From Tomocerus qinae (taxonomy: Eukaryota; Arthropoda; Collembola; Entomobryomorpha; Tomoceridae): a stretch of 64,000 nt of DNA. The stretch covers positions 84,568,001 to 84,632,000 of the forward strand of contig CM034546.1 of assembly GCA_020055645.1 (NCBI GenBank), given 5' to 3'. The notes under the pieces were generated by a model. That model made no database searches and was not told the origin of the DNA. It worked only from the letters and a program-made list of their open reading frames with translations. Shown here in pieces: positions 1 to 64,000 of this stretch. The translations under genes and the position numbers were made by a program. Within the stretch, counting starts at the first letter, position 1. Each line of letters opens with the position of its first letter.

Positions 1-1034
1 TTCAAGCGTTTGATTCAAATCGTCCTGCCGAAATTCAAAAAGCGATTGTCACGGGAATAAGAAAACGGGGTTCCAGAAATTGCTCCAGGAGGGGTGGTGA
101 CCCAAAGGAAGAGTCTGGCGTAGACGCAAAAGGTACCTTGCTGTCATGGCCGTCTCTTCCTTGGGAATCTTCAAGATCTGCTTGGAAAGTAATTCTTTTA
201 TTTTTCGCAAAACTTTAATTGTTTTAAATATGATGAGTGGCTATTACTAAAGTTGTAATGTCGTTTAGGTACCCTTCATCTATCGCGGAGACCTAATTCC
301 CGAAAACGGCTACGTATTCTACGATGTTGAGAAATTGACTGTAAAAACCGAAGGAAAAGTCCATGAGCAAGTTGGGTCATGCATAGCGGTAGTTAATGAA
401 CAAAAAGATTTAATATTTTGGTGTTTTATTAAACCTGAAAAAGAAGTGTGCCAATACTTTAAAAGTATGACAGGAATTGATAAAATGAAATTGGAAATAG
501 GACTGCCATTGCAAACTGTAAGTAGGAAATTATCAGGGCTATAAATTCTATTAACTTATAAATACACATATTGGAACTAAATATCAAATATGATAATTGT
601 TGCAGGTATTGTTTTTTGTAAATCTGTGCTTTCAAGGGAATACCATAGTGGGTTATGATATGGAGAATGATCTCAAATGCATTGGGCAACCAACCGTTAC
701 TAGTAAAGATGACCTGTCTGAATATTTCTTCGAAAAGAAATCAGCCCCAAATTCGAACAAAGCAATCCAAGAGAAATACTCATTAAAGGATTTAAACTAT
801 CATTTCTTCAAGACAGACATCCAATGCAGTCTTCACTCTGCAATAATTGATGCAAGGACAACAAGAGACCTTTGGGTTAAAAAAAAGGAGCTTATCGTTA
901 CTCAGCCTGTATTCATGGAAAATGTTGCTAGATCCGCCAAGAAATCGTTTGTGTTTGACAAAACTGATGTCTGCAAATGTCCTAACACCAAAGCAAACAA
1001 GAAGCGCACGAATCCATTGTATTTCCCCAATTAA
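1..1034 (+). CDS. DEDDh 3'-5' exonuclease domain (REXO4/ISG20/AEN-like), 3' part of gene
   Basis: Three exons join in phase 0: 3-188 (5' end outside the window), 269-517 and 606-1034, with GT-AG introns 189-268 and 518-605. The product resembles the RNA exonuclease 4 / ISG20 group, metal-dependent enzymes that trim RNA or DNA from the 3' end. Catalytic residues are visible in order: FYDVE (Asp and Glu of motif I), GYDMENDLK (motif II Asp) and HSAIIDAR (motif III, His five before Asp), so the active site looks intact. The first exon, with DPKEESGVDAKG, is low complexity and uninformative. The C-terminus is a lysine-rich tail ending at a TAA, and an AATAAA lies about 30 bases downstream. It appears to be a host gene; the missing 5' end prevents naming the orthologue. 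Confidence 0.75.
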
Positions 1035-1554
1035 TTTTTTCTCAGGCTACCTCTGATTGCGCGGAAATAAACTAATTAAATCTATTATCTGTAAATAATA
1101 ATTGACCATTACAAGTAATTATAAGTACTAATAATTATTATTAATATAAAATTATTGGCATTATTAGTAATAATAACAAGTATGTAGGCAGTATTGAAAG
1201 TTCTAGGTGACGCGGGAATAAATCAAATATTGATCCCAATTTTGATTCTTAATGATTGAATTATAATTGGCTTATTGATTAAATAATGAATATAGGTGAC
1301 AATAATTTTTTAAAAAGTGATGGATTTCAGAATTTGTTATTACAGTGAGCAGATATTAAACCATTTGGTAAATTAAGTCATATTTATTATGCTACAATCA
1401 CATTTCGGTTAAACAGGGATACATAAAGTACTACTAATTAGGCTTAAGGTAATAATTAATATTACAACTAACTTCATTACAATAAATGCAATAGTATATT
1501 TCAATTCCATTTCTATTGTATATATTCTATTAATTGTATTTTTTCCTCAAGAAC
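1035..1554. other. AT-rich intergenic stretch, no gene seen
   Basis: The stretch holds the 3' flank of the exonuclease gene (AATAAA near 1066) and AT-rich sequence with many ATTAAT/AATAAT runs. No open frame of note and no clear terminal repeat for the neighbouring P-like element was found by eye. Confidence 0.5.
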
Positions 1555-4500
1555 TTATTGATTGCGTAACTCACGTCTAGTTTGATTCCACGATTTAGAA
1601 AGCTTTACACAGTCATTCTTGTCCTTTACCAAACGAAACAATATGATACGTAAATATTTAACCAAAATGTTTTTTCTGTGTTGACATTGATTATTATCTA
1701 GCCATTTCTTAACCAACGGAATTGAATTGTACATAGTTAGCATATTTGTTATTATATTAACACCGGTACAGGTAAGAGTCTTATTTAAAACCAAACGAAA
1801 AGACTTAGCGACATAAAAAAATACGTCAAAATGGCAAAGTGTCATTACAGATTTGAAATCTAGCTTACCCATATTTCTCTGACAAATTGAATAAGCCTTT
1901 TCAAAGCACAACATTTCACTTTTTGATGTCAAAGTGCTATTGTGTAACATATGCTTACAATTTCGGCATCCTGTCTTACTAAGGCTGTTTTTAATGCAAA
2001 AACTTCCAACATACATTGCAACCATTTTATTATGCTCATCAGTCTTAATTTCTTTTTCTTGTTTGGATTTAAATTCTGTAAAGAAATTTGTGTCTATACT
2101 TGTTTCTAAACTTCGACTACAACCTTCACTATTTTCGCGTTCCTCAGAAGGATTACCTGGGTTCGGAATAGGTATAATTAAACCATCATTAACATTATTA
2201 TTGTAATGTAATACATTTTCAGAAGACACCGATTTTCTTAAATCTGACAATGTTACTAGTGACGACAAAGAATTATTTTCGCAGTTAGAGTATTTTGACA
2301 CTTTTAAAGAACTATTGAATGTTAAAAAGCGAAAGTTTTCTCTAAATTGCCTTGCTGTAGGATTTTTGCACCAACCGCCTTTGGATCTGATTAATGAAAA
2401 AAAGTTTTCACAACAATCTTGTTGAATTTTCCGGGTATACACTTTTTTGTATCCACTGCATTCCAAATCCTTAACGATCATTTTAATCCCCACAAGCGTT
2501 ATCTCCAGACCTCTTAAAAAATCTGGGATTCCTTCTTTTGCCTTTGGTATTTCAATGGATTTAACCAAATTAATATATTTGTCAAATAAAAAACTATTTT
2601 CAAATATTTTGTTTGCACATTTAACCGGTTTAGGGTCTGTCAGTTTGGAAATATTACACAGATCAAACATTGTGTCGATATCTTTAACAAAAGCAGCAGT
2701 TGCTTTAGCTAATACATTAAGTCTCTTGCTTCTAATCATTGTCATCATGCCTGAATAAACTGAATGACTTAATATTTGCACTGCTAGCTTTACTTTCATC
2801 TTGCTAAAATCTTTAACATGCAAATGACCGTCAGTAAGTTTAGGTGCCATTCTCAATGTACATTTTCTATCTTTCTTGGCAAATTGATTAATGTACAGCC
2901 ATTTTATCAATTTTCTTTTTTTCCCTTTGCCAATAGCAAAACTATATTTCATTAAATTGTTTCGTATCAATTTGATTAGGTGAGGAATATCAAACACCAT
3001 AATAATTTTGCGAGTGTCTACCATAATGAATGGCCTTGCTGAAGAGATTCCCCACGCGCGATACAAACCCTGATTACAAAAACCCATGTCGCACACACAA
3101 CCACGCAATGACAAACCTAAGGATAAAACAGTGGTAATATTCTCCATAACAATATTTTTCAAGTTTTCAGTTGTTGTACTCGAGCAGGAAAAATAATATG
3201 AAAATGGTAATTTCCATTCACCATATAATCCTTGGACCATGAATACGAGGCACTCTGTGGCAAGTTCCAACTTTCGAAATCCCTTTCCCAAATCTGTTAT
3301 GCCTGTCAATCGGTCTTTGTTTCGGTCATATTCGAGTAATTCCTTAACAGAAACTTCATCCCACACCAGAATGCACTCCTTTTCTTCCTGTTTTAGGGCA
3401 CTAACTTTTTCCTTTACCGCTTCAACTAGTTGCTTATTTATTCCAACTTCAAAATTAAACTTCATTAACCAGAATTGAATGGTAGATACGCTTGGCAATT
3501 TAAACCCTGTTTGTAGAAGAGTCCTAAACATACACCATTATACAATTTATGATAAATCAAAGTAATAATAAACTAAGAAATGCGATATACAATTTTGTAC
3601 ATTTATAATTACTTGTATCCTTTTGAGCCGCAGGAGTAATATAAGGTCATAGCAGTAGACTTTTCTTCTTCTGTGTAAAAATGACTTCCTTTGTGTTGAT
3701 AGCGTTTTACTTGAGATATAATAATGTCTTTCATTCTAGGGTTCTTTTGAAATATTGATTCCAATTCCTGGTGCAGTGTTTGATTCTTTTTTAATCGCGT
3801 CTGTAGTCGAAGTTTAGATTGCCTACACTGTCGTAGACGTTTTTTTAAACTCATATCTTTGCCATCAATTGTGTCCAATCGTCTAGGTTTTACAGTATAT
3901 TTGGAGGCTGTCTTACAGTAACAGGAATTTTCGGATGAATTAATCGATGGTTTTGGTAGAATTTTTCTGCGGATATTACGTATTGTAATTAGTCCTTTTA
4001 ATAAGAAATCATAGATAGACGTGTCGAATGTTAGAAAAGTACCTGTATATTTTGTGAGAGGGAGGAGTATTTTCCTTATTAATCGGAGACTGCATTTGAC
4101 CATGTGGACATTGGGTGGATGGAGCCGAGGGATACGCCACTGCTGTACATTGCAGGGCCATTCCACTAGTATTCGGAGACAAATGGTATGGTTTCAAAGG
4201 CTGTAGAAGGCTGAAATAAAAAACAAAATTATTTAATTTTCCACATCGAGGGTTAATTCAACAAATATTTTGTCGTTAGTGCATTAAATTATGATTTAAT
4301 ATTACGCATACTATTCATCACTGGTATCAAAAGTTTCTTTAGGAGAGGACCTCTGTCTGCTTGGACATTGGGTAATTGGAGGCGAGGGATACGCCACTGC
4401 TGTACATTGCAGGGCCATTCCACTAGTATTCGGAGACAAATGGTCTGGTTTCAAAGGTTGTAGAAGGCTGAAATAAAAAACAAAATTATTTAATTTTCCG

Positions 4501-5121
4501 CATCGAGGGTTAATTAAACAAATATTTTGTCGTTATTGCATTAAATTATGATTTAATATTACGTATACCATTGATCACTGGTATTAAAAATTCCATTAGA
4601 AGAGAACATCTGTCTCCTTGGATATTGGGTTTTTGGAGGTGAGGGATACGCCACTGCTGTGCCTTGCAGGGCCATTCCACTAGTATTTGGAGACAAATTG
4701 TTTATCCTCAAAGATTGCAGAGGACTGAAAATAAAAATAAAAACATTTAATTCCTTGTATTATAAGATGCCATAACAGATAGGTTATGTTACTTTAAAAA
4801 TCGATACGATGACATCGTTTTTCATTACCTGCGTGTTGACGTTGTCGACCCAATTTCGTTATTTATTGATAGCGGAGTAAAACTTTCATTGTTTGATGCA
4901 CTAAATGGAAGGGCTTTTTTCTTTAATCGACACATTACTTTTTGATCAGATGTAAAATGTCTGTCGCAAATAACACTTGAGGCTTTTAAATTTTGATCGG
5001 CGATATGAAGGATTTTCTTCCATTTTTCTCGACGTTCGGGTGTTTTTGGAAGTGTATAAAAATATGATTTACGAGAGCACGTTTCTAACACCCCGCAATA
5101 CAAGCACCTACGACTCCCCAT
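1555..5121 (-). CDS. P-element / THAP9-like transposase, six exons, apparently intact
   Basis: Exons on the minus strand are 5121-4829, 4724-4569, 4467-4312, 4210-4043, 3966-3613 and 3523-1555. All joins use GT-AG and preserve phase, giving 3096 nt, 1031 codons plus stop. Exon 1 is a THAP zinc finger of C2CH type: CLYC near residues 7-10, VICDRHF near residue 50. Exon 5 encodes a basic leucine-rich stretch, probably a coiled coil, followed by a helix-turn-helix-like region. Exon 6 carries the RNase H-like catalytic core: ILVWDEVSVKE (first Asp), GCVCDMGF (second Asp), VFDIPHLIKLIRNNL (typical P/THAP9 motif) and CCENFFSLIRSKGG with the candidate Glu. The family cuts and pastes DNA using GTP as cofactor. 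Exons 2, 3 and 4 are copies of each other, which is unusual (see the repeat entry). It could be a domesticated THAP9-like gene, but the transposon-rich setting favours an element. Terminal inverted repeats were not recognised. Confidence 0.82.
4043..4740 (-). repeat. Three tandem copies of a 257-bp exon-plus-intron unit inside the P-like gene
   Basis: Acceptor sites at 4724, 4467 and 4210 are exactly 257 bp apart, and donors of the first two copies (4569 and 4312) are also 257 bp apart. Each copy encodes a variant of LSPNTSGMALQ followed by TAVAYPS. Two copies are 156-nt exons (52 codons, same phase both sides), so tandem copying keeps the frame. The third uses a different downstream donor (CAG-GTACTT) to give 168 nt. 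Confidence 0.88.
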
Positions 5122-5353
5122 TTTATTTAAATTATAATTTATAGTTTTTTTCTCTCATTTCAGTTAAAAAGAATGATCTCTGAATGTAGTTGTAGCTGCT
5201 CAAGTGGGTCTTGTGGTTGTGTCTTGTTCTACTTGCCGCGGTGAAACTGTAAAGCATGTGGTCAATACTCAGCCTCCTCCTAATCTCCGCCTACAATGAC
5301 GTTGCTCATAATTTATTCATTGTCATTGGCTGTCGATTACCTAATAGTAATGC

Positions 5354-6255
5354 TTAAATTATGAGAGATGGTATCAACCTTAGCATAGACTTTGGGCATA
5401 TTAAGCTGTTCAGGCTTAATCTTAGTATATGCATTAATTTAATGATTTTACCCGGTACACAGTTCAACCCAAGTGTTAAACTAATTTCTACTTTCATTAG
5501 CAATTTGTACACTTCATTCTCACTTAATCTAAAAAAGTCTGAAGTTGTGAAAGTCTTCCACATACTCATTAACTCACTAGTTTCATTTTCATGACTCAAT
5601 GTAAATCTATCAATGAAACATTTTGCTATTTCTTCATTTGTGGACATAACAGCATTATCAACAGATAGTTCACGCACTAGAGTAGAGCTTACATTATTAT
5701 TAACTAAACTATTGTATGTTACCCAAAGATGGCTACTTTCTTTACTCTTGGAGAATTGAGTATAATAGTAATTATTTTTAGCGTTCTTAATAATAGCCGT
5801 AGTTTTATTTCTAAGTTTCTTATACATAGCTATTAGATTTTGGCCTTTTAATTTTATATACTTGTTTTTTCACATAATTTCTATAATGTATCAGCTTTTT
5901 GATTTGAATAGTAATCCAAGGTGCCGGCTTGGACTTGACACGACGAGTAACAATAGGCACATGCTCATTTATTATATCCATACACAGTGTATTAAACGTA
6001 TCAAGCATAGCCTCAGCACTTTCAGAGGAATCCAGAACAGACCACGGAATTTGTTCCAAGGCTGCCTTTAATTTATCATTATTTACGGCCTTATAATTAC
6101 GTGTTTTAATGCATTTAGAAGTGATAGAATATTTTGGTTTCTTGCGAACGCAATAGGTAATGTCATGGTCAGAGAAATCACAAGAAATGACACCTGCCTG
6201 TTGAATAAAGTCAGGTCTATTACAATAATGTGGTCTAACAAAGATGTTATGACAA
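5354..6255 (-). pseudogene. Non-LTR retrotransposon ORF2 fragment (endonuclease end to start of RT)
   Basis: Two overlapping minus-strand frames (6059-5820 extending up to about 6255, and 5827-5354) form a piece of a Jockey/CR1-type ORF2. The upstream part shows a SDHDITY motif typical of the C-terminal end of the AP-endonuclease. It is followed by the linker (AVNNDKLKAALEQIPW) and a stretch typical of the approach to the RT domain (SENEVYKLLM, LGLNCVPGKIIK). The element is broken by a frame change near 5823 and truncated before the RT catalytic motifs. No function is expected. Confidence 0.7.
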
Positions 6256-11684: not shown

Positions 11685-13768
11685 TTAAATCGAAACTAAG
11701 TTAGTGCAGAAATCTCTGTAGACAGGGAGGAGGTACGGACACATCGCAAGCAAATCGTTCTTTTTCTGGACAGTTATAGGCAATGGATGTTCATATTTTT
11801 TAATAAATTCCAGACCATCTAGGTAGTGTTCTACCCAGGGTAGCCTCTGATTGTAAGGAACGCCAAATTGTCCAGGACCCAATATCAAGTGTGCATTCAG
11901 TGCTGTTGGTAGATTATGATACTCTTTAGTAAATATAATCCCTGGGTACTGTGAATCTATACAAGCATACAGTATTGCTTGAACTTTCAGAGATTGTGGC
12001 TTTGGAATGATGTTTAAAAGTTCTTCAATGGCCAAAAAAGATTCTCTAGGCATCCGTTGAATTAAAAAGGGTTTTATAGGCTGTGCATCTAAAATTACAC
12101 CAATCCAATCGTCAGGGACATAAACTGGCTTCCTTTTCTTCTGTTTTTCTATAAGCGCAAAGAGGCGGTCACATTGGAGAAAAGAATGACCCGTAGTTAA
12201 GAACTTTTGCTCGACTTTTGTGAAAAGTTTCAATGTTAACAAGTATTGATAGAAACATAAGGTAAGCCAATTATTATTTTGCCCACCACACCGGTCGGAC
12301 CACACTATCAAACTTCTTTCGCCTTCTGTTAACGCTTGAAATTTTTGAGTCGGATATGTGTGCAAGCAGTTTAAAATTTCAACAGAACCTCTTTTTCCTT
12401 CATGTTCATGCCAAACGCACATAGTACCAGTATCTTCTTTTGCGTTGTAAATGCATAAATTAAAAGAACTGAACTGTCGCTTGTAAAATACATCTGCATG
12501 AGATAGAGTTGGTGAAAACAAAACCTAAAATATTTTAAATGTATAAGCTTGTCAGGCGAGCTAAAAAATTGTATCAGATAATTAGCATAGTAGTGGAGTT
12601 TTTACAAAAGGTTGTATTATACCTGCTCCAAGTCGATGCAAAGAACAATCATATTTTCTGTTTGCCGTGATAATTCAATATCTAGCGACATTTGATCATA
12701 ACCACCTTGTGATACTGCCCAATGAAGGTTTTGTTCAGTGACAGCAGCGTCTCTTGCTGGTCCTTGTAGATGATTTACTTCTACCTTCAGTCGATCACAC
12801 TGTGCACAGGTGTCTGATTTCGGTTGGCCAATTTTTAATCCCATTTCTTTTAATTGCATGGAGTATATGTTAGTAATGTTATGTCCTAAAGACGCATCAG
12901 AATATTCATCTTGGAAAAGTCTTGCCATTTTAGATAAAGTGAGATCACTGGTGAGAAATTCTTGATCACCGTTTCGGGCACGGGTATAATGGCTTATGTA
13001 TCTGGGAAACCGACTAATGTGTTCCATTATTATTCCAATTAACTCTTCAGAAATTGTTCGTGGGCGATTGGCATGCAATCCTCTTTCGTCTTTAGCCATA
13101 ATTTCACCCCCTGATAATTTTCTTCGGATTGTCTTTACTCTTTCTTCTGTTATTTTAAAAATGTTCAAAAATGTCTTTTTGCACACAGGAAGCAATTCCC
13201 CTTCTAATGGTACTAGATACCTGTACAATAGGAATAATGGCTAAAATTTATATTCACCTCTCGTATTTTTTTAAATTTTAAAACCAACTCAAAGAATATA
13301 TACCTAATTGAGCATTTTCTTCTGCTCTCACCAGCAGGAATGCTTCTATTTTCTAGATGAATCTCTCTGATGCATCTCATCAAAAATGTGCTCTGAAGCT
13401 CCCAGTCTCCATTGCGGTAGAATAAACTGAAGAGTCTTTGTTTAGCTTCTGGATTCATGTCACAACCTAGTTTGTTACATTTGTAGCCGCATACTTTTCC
13501 CTTCCAAAAATTGAAGCAACATTTATTTTCCACAATAATAGGTATTGCAATCTTTTCATTTAAATGAAAATAAATTTCTATTGGTCATTACATTGGCCGG
13601 TGGATCTTTTCCCAGGTGCTCTTGTCCATTACGCCCAGTATAACCTTGACCTGAATTCCTCAGTCTTTTTGCTAATGCGTCCTTACTGTCAGATATATGA
13701 AGGGGTCTTTTCTTGTAGGAATTTAAATGATGTTCACGATTTAAAGTTATTTTTATTGATTCGGCCAT
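11685..13768 (-). CDS. Transposase of element 1 (unassigned, DUF7869-like family), four exons, intact
   Basis: Exons are 13768-13592, 13500-13304, 13220-12623 and 12524-11685. All joins are GT-AG and in phase, 1812 nt, 603 residues. Exon 1 is basic. Exon 2 opens with GKVCGYKCNKLGC, probably zinc-binding. Exon 3 has SDTCAQCDRL, a second CxxC pair, then VLCIDLEQV. Exon 4 has VLFSPTL, LIVWSDRCGGQNNN and TGHSFLQCDRLFALIEKQKK. The acidic residues in those last three motifs are candidate catalytic residues of an RNase H-like DDE/DDD fold; this is inferred from spacing and conservation with the gene at 16696-18601. I recall similar animal proteins annotated as DUF7869-type, but cannot check this. 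The ATG at 13768 was chosen because it matches the start of the related gene; an upstream in-frame ATG at 13846 is possible. Confidence 0.8.
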
Positions 13769-22956: not shown

Positions 22957-23500
22957 GAAAATAGCCGAAGCCGTAAAATTTTAGCCCACGCCGAATAGAA
23001 GTTAGCCTACACCGAAGCATCTGCGCCGAAGCCGAAGGAAAATAGCCGAAGCCGAAGTGGAAAATAGCATAGCATAAGTTTGTTGAAATTGGCCAACGCC
23101 GAATGGAAAATAGCCGACGCCGAATCAAAAGTGAAAAGTTGTCGGCGCCGAAGTAAAAATATACCTGCCGACGCAGAATAGAACACAGCCGACGCCGAAG
23201 TGGAATTTAGCCGAAGCCGAATAGAAATTAGCCGACGCCGACGTGGAAATTAGCCGAAACCGACGTGAAAATAACCGAAGCCTAAGTGGAAATTGGCATA
23301 CGCCGATGCCGTAGCATAAATTGCCGAAGTTGTGGTGTAAATTTAACCGCCGAAGCCGAATAGAACACAGCCGACGCCGAAGTGGAAAATAGCCGAAGCC
23401 GAATAGAAATTAGCCGACGCCGACGTGGAAATTAACCGAAGCCGAAGTGGAAAATCACCGAAGCCGAAGTGGAAATCAGCCGAAGCCGAAATAATATATC
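22957..23500 (+). repeat. CCGAAG-type minisatellite, left arm
   Basis: Imperfect units of about 22 bp of the form AGCCGAAGCCGAAGTGGAAA repeat about 24 times, varying between CCGAAG and CCGACG. Reading frames across it are by-products. Confidence 0.85.
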
Positions 23501-29094: not shown

Positions 29095-29765
29095 ATCCAT
29101 GGATGTATATATCGTCCCTTAAGGATGGAAAAAGCCTCTATCCACTTTCAGATTGGTACAGGAATAAGCCTATATCCATTTTTTGTTTGGCACAGGAAAA
29201 AGCCAAAATCCATTTTTTGTTTGGTACAGGAATAAGCCTAAATCCACTTTTCGTTTGGTGCAGGAAATAGCCTCTATCCTCTTGCAGCATTACGTAAAGT
29301 TGTCGGGGCACAGTAAGAATAAACAAGTTGACTGAATGAAGTATTTACTATTTTTATTGATACTTAAAATATATCATGCTATAATGTACATAAACATTAT
29401 AAAATTTTAGCTAATTACACAATAAGACAAAAACAAAACTTTTAACGACTTAAATTCGGATTTTGATATTGGATAAAACTAAACTGGCTGGAAGGAAGAA
29501 TGAAAGTTCAATATTACCGCCGCCCATATTAAGTATGTATCAATACGCCCCTATAAGCTGCAAGAGGGTAGAGGCTATTTCCTGCACCAAACGAAAAGTG
29601 GATTTAGGCTTATTCCTGTACCAAACAAAAAATGGATTTTGGCTTTTTCCTGTGCCAAACAAAAAATGGATATAGGCTTATTCCTGTACCAATCTGAAAG
29701 TGGATAGAGGCTTTTTCCATCCTTAAGGGACGATATATAGTATACATGTATCCATGGATGTGTAT
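29095..29765. mobile_element. Foldback element with internally repeated arms
   Basis: Arms 29095-29290 and 29566-29765 are inverted copies. Each arm contains four related units of about 34 bp on the pattern GGAATAAGCCTATATCCATT + TTTTGTTTGGCAC. The unique centre (29291-29565) is AT-rich with no gene. Confidence 0.8.
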
Positions 29766-34569: not shown

Positions 34570-34996
34570 ATCACAGATATATTATTTCGGCTTCGGCTGA
34601 TTTCCACTTCGGCTTCGGTTAATTTCCACGTCGGCGTCGGCTAATTTCTATTCAGCTTCGGCCAAATTTCACTTAGGCTTCGGCTACTTTCCACTTCGGC
34701 GTCGGCTGTGTTCTATTCGGCGTCGGCAGGTATATTTTTACTTCGGCGCCAACAACTTTTCACTTTTGCTTCGGCGTCGGCTATTTTCCATTCGGCGTTG
34801 GCCAATTTCAACCAACTTATGCTATGCTATTTTCCACTTCGGCTTCGGCTATTTTCCTTCGGCTTCGGCACAGATGCTTCGGTGTAGGCGTAGGCTAACT
34901 TCTATTCGGCGTGGGCTAAAATTTTACTTCGGCTTCGGCTATTTTCCACTTCGGCTTGTGCTAATTTCTATTCGGCGTAAGCTAATTTCTAGTACC
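34570..34996 (-). repeat. CCGAAG-type minisatellite, right arm
   Basis: Same array as at 22957-23500 in inverted orientation (TTCGGCTTCGGCTATTTTCC). The same variant units appear in the same order in both arms, so the arms are copies rather than independent amplifications. Confidence 0.85.
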
Positions 34997-47284: not shown

Positions 47285-47720
47285 AATTATAAAAGCGATT
47301 TGCTTCGACAAACTCGCAAAAAAACGACATTTTCGTATAAATATGAGTTGCTTCGACAAGCTCGCACACAAAACGACATTTTCGTATAAATGCGAGTTGC
47401 GTCGACAAACTCGCACAAAAAATGACATTTTCGAATAAATTCGAGTTGCTACGACAAACTCGTACAGAAAACGACATTTTTGTATAAGTGCGAGTTGCTA
47501 CGACAAACTCGCACAGAAAACGACATTTTCGTATAAGTGCGAATTGCTTCGACAAACTCGCACAGAAAACGACATTTTCGTATAAGTTCGAGTTGCTTCG
47601 ACAAACTCGCACAGAAAATGACATTTTCGTATAAGTGCGAATTGCTTCGACAAACTCGCACAGAAAACGACATTTCCGTACAAGTGCTAGTTACTTAGAC
47701 AAACTGGCACAGAAAACGAC
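47285..47720 (-). repeat. 49-bp tandem repeat, nine units
   Basis: GACAAACTCGCACAGAAAAC recurs every 49 bp, with ACATTTTCGTATAAGTGCGA completing the unit. Because 49 is not divisible by 3, the array gives long overlapping frames in all three phases on the minus strand; these are not genes. Confidence 0.88.
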
Positions 47721-47737
47721 ATATTTTAATAGTCAAC

Positions 47738-51589: not shown

Positions 51590-52790
51590 AAAAAAATAAG
51601 TATAACTGCTAGGTCAGTGACCTGGAATTAATTAAATGTATTTCACCCTCCAACTTTATTACTGATCAATTTGATACCCAATACTGACTTGAAATATGTT
51701 GGCGGGATTTGGTATCGCTATTTTAATTCCAATATTGAACAATTAAATCAGATTAAACTGCTAAAAACTGTTAGCCAGTGACCCGAAATCGATGAAATAT
51801 TTTCTACAGTACTCCAACAATATTACCGATCAATTTGATACTTAATACTGACTTGTAATATGTTGGCGGGATTTGGTATCGCTATTTTAATTCCAATATT
51901 AAACAATTAAATCAGATTCAGTTGCTAAAAACTGCTTAGGCAGTGATCCGAAATTGATAAAACGTTTTCTACAGTACTCTAACAATATTACTGATCAATT
52001 TGATACCCAATACTGACTTGGAATATGTTGGCGGGATTTGGTATCGCTATTTTATTTCCAATATTAAACAATTAAATCAAATTCAACTGCTAAAAACTGC
52101 TTAGCCAGTGACCCGAAATTGATGAAATGTTTTCTACAGTACTCCAACAATATTACTGATCAATTTGATACCTAATACTGGCTTGAAATATGTTGGCGGG
52201 ATTTGGTATGGCTATTTTAATTCCAATATTGAACAATTAAATCAAATTCAAACGCTAATAACTGCTTAGCCAGTGAGCCGAAATTTATGAAATGTTTTCT
52301 ACAGTACTCCAAAAATATCACTGATCAATTTGATATCCAATACTGACTTTAAATATATTGGCGGGATTTGGTATCGCTATTTTAATTCCAATATTGAACA
52401 ATTAAATCAGATTCAACTGCTAATAACTGCTTAGCCAGTGAGCCGAAATTGATGAAATGTTTTCTACATTACTCCAACAATATTACTGATCAATTTGATA
52501 CTTAATACTGATTTGTAATATGTTGGTTAGATTTGGTATCGCTATTCTAATTCCAATATTGAACAATTAAAGCAGATTCAACTGCTAAAAACTGCTTAGC
52601 CAGTGATCCGAAATTGATAAAACGTTTTCTACAGTACTCTAACAATATTACTTGTCAATTTGATACCTAATATTTTCTTGTAGTATTTTGGCAGGATTTG
52701 GTATCGCTGTTTATATTCTAATATAGTACAATTAAATCTCATTAAAGTGCTTATAACTGCTTAGCCAGTGATCCGAAATTAATGAAATGT
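51590..52790 (+). repeat. 165-bp satellite, seven units
   Basis: GGCGGGATTTGGTATCGCT (with variants) occurs at 51701, 51865, 52030, 52195, 52360, 52525 and 52690, spacing 164-165 bp. Each unit also has TTACTGATCAATTTGATACC and CTGCTTAGCCAGTG. Units diverge towards the right end. No coding content. Confidence 0.92.
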
Positions 52791-53250
52791 TCCATAAAAA
52801 CTATTTTCCAAATGTTATATCTTACGTGTATTCCACAGTTGATAAGTACGTGTGTAGCCAAAGTTATATTTCCGTATGGGACATATGTAGTACCTACATC
52901 TATCTGTGCTAACAGACACAGGTATATATATTTCAAAGCTAAAAAATGAAATATATATACCGCGCCTTCTCCGCAAATGCTTCATACTTTAAAGAATACG
53001 CACTGAAGAAAGGGGTAATTGTTGGTTACAACAATTAAAGACATTGGGTTGGGTGGGAGTGTAATACTCGGATGAAAGGACACTCATAATTTGGATTAAA
53101 CTTTAAACTGGTAAGTCCTTTCATCCTTAGTATTATATATGTAGATTTTCAAAGAATAAGTACGTTAAAGAGTGCAGTCTTATTATACTTAATTATTAAA
53201 TTTTATTCTTGCAAATTCATTGTCATAATATCATTCATTATCAATGACTC

Positions 53251-62771: not shown

Positions 62772-63030
62772 TTGTGTGCAATACTTAAAGTATATTTATG
62801 AAATGTCTAACTCAATTAAATATATTTATTTTAGTAGTTAACTAAAAGTAAACTAAACTAAAATTTTAGTAGTGTATAGTAGTTAACAAATGTTAAATGT
62901 ACAGAATAGCATTTGCTACGTAAAAAAGTGTTAATAATTTGGCTCTTATGTAAGTTTAAACGTGTTGCGTAAAGTCTAGAAAACTGATCCTTTACCCCTA
63001 ACAAGTTTTTACATTTATTTTAGATTTTAG
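62772..63030. other. 3' flank of the DDE-SWIM gene
   Basis: AT-rich, with repeated TTAGTAGTTAAC-like words near 62833-62885. No gene seen. Confidence 0.4.
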
Positions 63031-63510
63031 GTTGTAAGTGCATCTTTTAGGTTGTAAGTGCATCTTTTAGGTCGTAAGTGCATCTTTTAATTTGTAAGTG
63101 CATCTTTTAGGTTGTAATTGCATCTTTTAGGTTGTAAGTGCATCTTTTAGGTTGTAAGTGCATCTTTTAGGTTGTAAGGGTATCTTTTAGGTCGTAAGTG
63201 CATCTTTTAATTTGTAAGTGCATCTTTTAGGTTGTAAGTGCATCTTTTAATTTGTAAGTGCATCTTTTAATTTGTAAGTGCATCTTTTAGGTTGTAAGTG
63301 CATCTTTTAGGTTGTAAGTGCATCTTTTAGGTTGTAAGTGCATCTTTTAGGTTATAAGTGCATCTTTTAGGTTGTAACTCCATCTTTTAGGTTGTAAGTC
63401 CATCTTTTAGGTTGTAAGTCCATCTTTTAGGTTGTAAGTCCATCTTTTAGGTTGTAAGTCCATCTTTTAGGTTGTAAGTCCATCTTTTAGGTTCTAAGTG
63501 CATCTTTTAG
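63031..63510 (+). repeat. 20-bp tandem repeat, 24 units
   Basis: GTTGTAAGTGCATCTTTTAG repeats in exact 20-bp register 24 times. Variants (TTTGTAAGTG, GTCGTAAGTG, GTTGTAAGTC) are clustered, showing block-wise spread inside the array. Confidence 0.95.
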
Positions 63511-64000
63511 GATTTTTATGTCATGTATTTGTGAGCCATGTTCAATGGTAGACAAGGACTTTATGAGTCATGAAAACATATTTCAATATTGCAACTAAAG
63601 TTTTATATCTCATCTACATTTCATTCTCTCAACAGTCTCATACACTATTCACCTATATTAAATGAATGATTATTTAATGAATTAGTATACTTATAAACTG
63701 TCACTCGTATCACTTTATGATTTGGCATTTATTTTTTTGAGATAGGATAAATGTGCCAATTGGCACTTTCATTTTTATCCCCCAACCCTTAGCTAGAGCC
63801 AACAACCTGCTTACTCCTTTTAGTCTATTTTATAGTAGCACTATTATACGATTCTTTGTTTGCATCTTTAATTTTTTAAGAATAACTTTTTATTTTGAGA
63901 TTTGAATTATTTAGTTTTATTTTGTAATTGTAATGAAATGGTTTTGTAAGTGGATCTTAGTAGTTTTACATCCATTAACATACTAAAAATCAATTGACAG
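63511..64000. other. No gene seen
   Basis: AT-rich sequence to the window edge. No open frame or repeat of note. Confidence 0.4.

Follow-up and report, generated by a model that had tools for sequence, protein, structure and literature searches.

The stretch of DNA analysed here (64 kb, hereafter the window) opens within a complete P-like DNA transposon, which has ends and a target duplication (TSD) and whose transposase gene contains a modular array of exons, placed between those for the THAP finger and the coil/HTH segment. A second gene, convergent to that of the transposase, is predicted to specify an exonuclease. The features of the element are as follows.

-536 to 5431 (1-5431 within the window), no strand: complete transposon, delimited by TIRs and a flush TSD; its left part is locus L017
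4829-5121, minus strand: THAP zinc-finger exon, carrying the start codon (Pfam and joined frame)
4569-4724, minus strand: array unit 1, 156 nt (joined frame); a probable chimera, with its 5' part of the c1 type and its 3' part and downstream intron of the c2 type
4468-4568, minus strand: intron between units 1 and 2, 101 nt, predicted from GT..AG
4312-4467, minus strand: array unit 2, 156 nt (joined frame)
4211-4311, minus strand: intron between units 2 and 3, 101 nt, with 96% identity to the intron between units 1 and 2
4043-4210, minus strand: array unit 3, of the last type, 168 nt, with the tail SPINKENTPPSHKIYR (joined frame)
3613-3966, minus strand: coil/HTH exon, 354 nt (joined frame); the Tnp_P_element HTH match crosses the junction to the catalytic exon
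1555-3523, minus strand: catalytic exon, an RNase H-like domain split by a GTP-binding insertion (Pfam and PDB alignment)
1-1034, plus strand: ISG20/REXO4-like exonuclease gene, convergent to the transposase gene, with introns predicted from GT..AG
About -57 to 186, 269-516 and 607-1034, plus strand: coding exons of the exonuclease gene, preceded by an ATG-only exon near -178 (GT..AG)

Joining the six predicted exons on the minus strand from 5121 to 1555 yields an open frame of 1031 codons, with five introns that are each bounded by GT..AG and each in phase 2, and with the exons in the order THAP, three array units, coil/HTH and catalytic. Using Pfam, we identified an N-terminal THAP zinc finger (PF05485, 4.2e-9), an RNase H-like core with a GTP-binding insertion (PF21787, 7.8e-33; PF21788, 2.4e-19; PF21789, 3.5e-11) and, when the coil exon and the beginning of the catalytic exon were taken as one joined sequence, an HTH domain (PF12017, 4.2e-6; on the frame of the coil exon alone this match scored 0.079, under the cut-off). 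The single structure matched in a PDB search was the Drosophila P transposase (6p5a, E 1.5e-35), and D, D and E of the window transposase align at the catalytic stretches of that protein, with what we take to be its catalytic residues. With a THAP finger, an HTH domain, a split RNase H-like core and D/D/E all present, the protein belongs to the P superfamily (THAP/P-like), and its arrangement of THAP, coil/HTH and an RNase H domain split by a GTP-binding insertion is that of the Drosophila P transposase (PDB 6p5a/6pe2). A preliminary description of this DNA, which had proposed a P-like transposase with in-frame exon copies between its THAP and catalytic parts and an intact predicted frame, is borne out in this respect. 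The dN/dS of the catalytic exon is 0.12 between the window copy (W) and a related copy, L015, with dS near saturation, while that of the THAP exon is 1.17 between W and L010, a value based on few changes; constraint is thus not uniform across the transposase. The transposase coding sequence also contains a perfect 17-nt inverted repeat (2105-2121 and 3802-3818).

The array comprises three copies of a 257-bp exon-plus-intron unit (4043-4752, minus strand). This period, as previously proposed, was recovered by tandem-repeat detection, which reported an array at 4105-4752 with a period of 257, 2.5 copies and a score of 1002; the array amounts to 2.5 periods because what all three copies have in common is limited to the acceptor side and some 106 nt of exon. 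For the same array a duplicated exon of 156 nt had been claimed, which holds for units 1 and 2 (156 nt each) but not for unit 3, which is 168 nt long with a 3' end of its own. Direct repeats within the array are 96% and 81% identical over 134 nt, and a 30-mer from the core described below occurs three times in the window (at most 3 mismatches) compared with no occurrence in 100 shuffles. Copies 1 and 2 of the exon differ at 27/156 positions and copies 2 and 3 at 6/106 over their shared part; exons 1 and 2 are 83% alike, and the two window introns 96%. An assembly artefact is unlikely, as a second locus has the same array.

The product of the convergent gene aligns with ISG20/REXO4-type structures (PDB 1wlj, E 6.5e-5; PDB 7yw5, which we take to be REXO4, E 0.0037), and the gene had no match to any Pfam family. 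In the exonuclease rows shown, the motifs VF(Y/F)DVEK, GYDM..DLK and HSAIIDAR are each present in 7/7, and their D.E, D and H....D are presumably the DEDDh exonuclease motifs; on this motif content the accessory gene is a predicted DEDDh exonuclease of the ISG20/REXO4-like kind. It keeps the GYDM..DLK and HSAIIDAR of ISG20/REXO4-type enzymes and differs from them in being borne by a transposon, in its additional N-terminal exon and in its lack of a Pfam match. Exonuclease exons were found in the window copy, in its twin D (see below), in L010 and in L012-L016, with a low dN/dS (0.09-0.24) in three comparisons and dS saturated in five others. At least 11 of 32 transposase places (taken from an 82-row table) have an exonuclease match at a distance of 7 kb or less, and three exonuclease-paired places (C1:74.49 Mb, C1:81.95 Mb and C5:17.12 Mb) have just 36-38% transposase identity. 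The genome holds at least 153 exonuclease matches; among the matches listed, most are short, 37-47% identical and confined to one exon. No account of a P-like transposase paired with an exonuclease was found among the titles and abstract openings retrieved from an open-licence library.

Element ends and related copies

The TIRs of the element (CATAGACTAAG / CATATACTAAG) are imperfect, with 11/14 positions matching, and the element is flanked by a 9-bp TSD, CATTAATTT, that is flush at both ends. A comparison of W with itself gave no inverted repeats that reached 25 nt at E<=1e-3, and hence nothing like the 31-bp TIR of the canonical P element. An exact flush TSD of at least 9 bp, not the canonical 8 bp, was present in 6/6 copies for which both ends were located (window, L010, L013, L014, L015 and L016); that of L013 is 10 bp, and L013 and L015 carry additional DNA close to the right end. 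The element couples a P-like transposase with a co-inherited predicted exonuclease and a 9-bp target duplication.

In the parts of the sources considered, the TSD is 8 bp for the Drosophila P element (PMC7776569) and for zebrafish Pdre2, which has a 13-bp TIR beginning CATA (PMC10983969), and 7 or 8 bp for Galileo of the P superfamily (PMC4168063), which has long Foldback-like TIRs (PMC3688188). The window element departs from the Drosophila P element in its TSD (9 bp rather than 8), in TIRs that are short and imperfect, and in the presence of both a second gene and an exon array. Its likeness to Pdre2/THAP9 lies in the 13-bp TIR beginning CATA and in a putatively disordered, linker-like insertion, the insertion of Pdre2/THAP9 being disordered and suggested by its authors to be a structural linker (PMC10983969); it differs from the 8-bp TSD there, and the parts of PMC10983969 considered describe no repeated exon units. 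With Galileo it shares membership of the P superfamily and a TSD length other than 8, but has 9 bp where Galileo, in the parts considered, has 7-8 bp and long Foldback-like TIRs. Among titles and abstract openings retrieved from an open-licence library, we found neither such an exon array in a P-like transposase nor an account of a 9-bp TSD.

The twin copy, D (L009, C1:88.6 Mb), lies 4 Mb away and has 99.8% identity to W: over 5.94 kb the two are separated by 10 substitutions and a single 3-bp gap. Its right end is 31 bp short and adjoins a flanking repeat of 7 bp that is imperfect, a pattern suggestive of the use of an internal end. The difference between W and D is only 0.2%, and the three-unit form has thus moved recently. 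A domesticated host gene is not favoured, given the TIRs, the TSDs and the 99.8% identical second copy. Nor was any relative of the catalytic exon confirmed among viral contigs.

Comparison of genomic copies for the number of repeat units, as the preliminary description had proposed, revealed relatives with four, three, two or about one (counts of copies in this single genome are lower bounds). Three units are present in the window copy, D, L010 and L011, and also in L012, in which a deletion has cut the last unit and the coil exon is deleted. Two units are present in L013, L014, L015 and L016, which are 97-98% alike and each have an exact TSD, indicating that the two-unit form has moved too, by means of its own or a sister's transposase; L015 combines an exact TSD with open exons. 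Four units are present in L027, L028 and L035, which belong to a subfamily with 65-73% identity to the window copy in the catalytic exon; the first unit is fused to the THAP exon (with unit ends set in L027 only), and L027 and L028 have an apparent THAP frameshift. L029 has one last-type unit of 165 nt that lacks the core together with an open catalytic frame, and the core is therefore not strictly needed. Within the 3.5 kb fetched, no unit was found in L030-L032 (34-36%), which have a coil match, or in L034; in L033 no THAP or array match was found.

Of eight copies examined for stops, W and D (three units) and L015 (two units) are stop-free in every exon, W having been checked as a full joined frame and D and L015 exon by exon, while L010, L011, L013, L014 and L016 (5/8) are broken somewhere. 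All 23 units with both ends set (19 + 4, with D, L028 and L035 not counted and the truncated L012 unit dropped) are in phase 2-2 and multiples of three, in nine distinct lengths; ends were placed by eye, at AG..GT in homologous positions. As every unit pairs a symmetric exon (phase 2-2) with an intron, gain, loss or recombination of units can leave the frame unbroken. Tandemly duplicated symmetric exons, with the same phase at both ends, are found in cellular genes; here they lie in a transposase, and their number varies among copies within one genome.

Two of the relatives are rearranged. In L010 with L020 (C7:810-819 kb), one element copy contains about six head-to-tail repeats of a segment of the catalytic exon, their period being near 1362 bp. 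In L011 with L021 (C7:536-556 kb), a second right end (corresponding to window 5431-5303) lies inverted about 3.5 kb off and the catalytic part is missing, an arrangement that is a foldback-like derivative.

The repeated core and probable exchange between units

Common to the units is a 16-residue core, TSGMALQGTAVAYPSP. Between subfamilies, 66/80 core residues are identical compared with 57/169 in the flanks (p=3.5e-13, from five dependent pairs in which two window units are used twice and right flanks are compared without gaps). A genome-wide search with the 36-nt core (at most 3 mismatches) gave 18 matches, 18/18 of them in these arrays, and none with a reversed control, and a host origin of the core was rejected on these grounds.

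In some of the comparisons, synonymous sites in the core are also kept: 12/12 compared with a background of 118/227 for W_c2 and L012_c3 (p=5e-4), and 11/13 compared with 411/730 for W_c2 and L015_c2 (p=0.035), within a set of 15 uncorrected, dependent tests whose p ranges from 5e-4 to 0.26, with 8/15 at p<0.05. A peptide motif alone does not account for this, and the conservation hints at an additional role as nucleic acid. The core might even act entirely as nucleic acid, serving as an exonic splicing element, forming a small RNA hairpin or providing an internal binding site, with the peptide a by-product. Codons kept beyond background in part of the comparisons would agree with such a role, as would two base pairs of the drawn core hairpin in which both partners are altered, each pair in a single sequence out of 13. 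However, the hairpin does not exceed shuffles in stability (z -1.5 to +0.9 for 6 sequences), its pairing measures were reached by 25 to 109 of 500 shuffles, and Rfam gave no match in window 3500-5200; conversion between elements could likewise keep synonymous sites, and the residues are conserved too. We consider this explanation improbable, and an RNA hairpin in the core a weak candidate, as neither stability nor covariation stands out.

Several comparisons point to recombination among units. In window unit 1, the sequence 5' of the core is 95-97% identical to unit 1 of L010 and L011, whereas that 3' of the core is 68% identical to those units and 93% to unit 2 of L011; unit 2 of L010 and unit 2 of L011 are identical over the 38 nt before the core and 82% identical after it. 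As we read these patterns, exchange would have occurred in or near the core at least twice, and from the half-exon comparison window copy 1 looks like a chimera of two unit types. This also accounts for the 96% identity of the two window introns despite 83% for exons 1 and 2, the 3' part of copy 1 and its downstream intron being of the c2 type. Copies 1 and 2 differ at 27/156 exon but 4/101 intron positions (p=0.0014), and 18/21 codon differences between them are nonsynonymous; positive selection on the array exon was set aside, as recombination explains at least part of this excess, the 3' part of copy 1 and its intron being of the c2 type. The 3' parts of copies 1 and 2 still differ at 10/50 positions, with no synonymous codon among the differences.

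The earlier "triplication of one exon" does not survive these comparisons: the array is old, with units in elements of about 65% protein identity, elements differ in unit number (about 1 to 4), and copy 1 is recombinant-like. A recent simple triplication was likewise rejected, since relatives at about 14% array divergence also have three units and copy 1 looks chimeric. Most of the half-exon data fit an ancestor with four units (c1-X-Y-c3) and the loss of a single unit in each of W, L010 and L011, every time at a different junction; the third junction, in L011 c3, points weakly the same way (92% identity to W_c2 compared with 87% to W_c3 over 38 nt), and four-unit relatives exist. Template switching in gap repair or unequal exchange would do as the cause of unit loss.

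Possible roles of the array

The array had also been suggested to act as a splice-regulated switch. If the last unit were omitted, unit 1 or 2 would join the coil exon, and in the window element the resulting junction codons, TG|A and TA|A, are stops; one-unit versions would end after 149 codons, as a short THAP-only repressor, and according to the part of PMC7776569 considered, retention of IVS3 gives rise to a 66 kDa repressor in the P element. Across the window element and its relatives, however, the junction with a coil exon whose first letter is A would be a stop in 4/12 non-last units (W c1, W c2, L010 c2 and L011 c2; 4/10 without L012) and an open codon in 8/12, with 0/2 stops in L012, for which the junction is hypothetical given its deleted coil exon, and 0/4 in L013-L016. 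The suggestion is weakened accordingly: a conserved splice-to-stop switch is not supported, and we regard this explanation as highly improbable.

On balance we lean slightly towards the array being a length-tolerant, flexible linker that repeats a short docking motif, with units normally spliced in and their number changed by exchange at the core. If all units are included, the linker would span about 55 to 180 residues and repeat TSGMALQGTAVAYPSP. It would be disordered, and the core motif would probably dock a partner, which could be a host factor or a different part of the transposase or of its DNA complex; repeated motifs would increase avidity and give the THAP finger access to sites whose spacing varies, and unequal exchange or template switching at the core would change the number of units. 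This reading is favoured by the intact 1031-codon frame, with phase 2 throughout and 23/23 units in multiples of three; by the retention of the core over its flanks and the mosaics in the half-exon and intron identity matrix; and by the stop-free W, D and L015, the exact flush TSD in 6/6 copies, the catalytic dN/dS of 0.12 and the four-unit L027, L028 and L035. It is weakened by the breaks in 5/8 copies and by the apparent THAP frameshift of L027 and L028, and also by the uneven constraint seen in the THAP exon (dN/dS 1.17), by the core-less unit of L029 and by the synonymous conservation of the core.

The main rival parts from the linker reading on a single point, the role of the motif, which it denies: exons that are symmetric and share a repeated core would recombine readily, a disordered linker would tolerate this, and the number of units would have no function. 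Related elements with open catalytic exons do carry about 1 to 4 units, unit types change in or near the core, and L010 has also tandemly expanded its catalytic segment, which implies that such elements amplify segments. The retention of the core between subfamilies (66/80 residues, flanks 57/169) and of the frame in 23/23 units with ends set nevertheless argue against it, and we think it rather unlikely, though a serious contender. A stronger form of the linker reading, which strikes us as distinctly doubtful, is that in a lineage of P-like transposons the recombining array is an adjustable linker whose unit number (about 1 to 4) would change fast and retune the span of binding sites or the number of host factors, with exchange at the core, conserved in peptide as well as nucleotide sequence, keeping every variant in frame. 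Related transposases whose linkers hold about 1 to 4 units thus occur as a natural series in one genome, and at least three of these have open exons together with element ends, which makes it directly testable whether the spacing from THAP finger to catalytic core sets P-type transposition.

Other features of the window

Elsewhere in the 64 kb, two GCCGAAGCCGAA-type arrays lie in opposite orientation about 11 kb apart (23025-23490 and 34586-34989), possibly marking the two ends of a single large foldback-like element. Arrays with a 34-bp period are present at 29127-29283 and 29572-29718, with consensus units that, by eye, are near reverse complements. An open frame on the minus strand (11688-12524) matches DUF7869 (5.4e-10) and is possibly another transposon gene. 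Strong tandem arrays are located at 51648-52791 (period 165 bp), 47288-47722 (period 49 bp) and 63025-63511 (period 20 bp).
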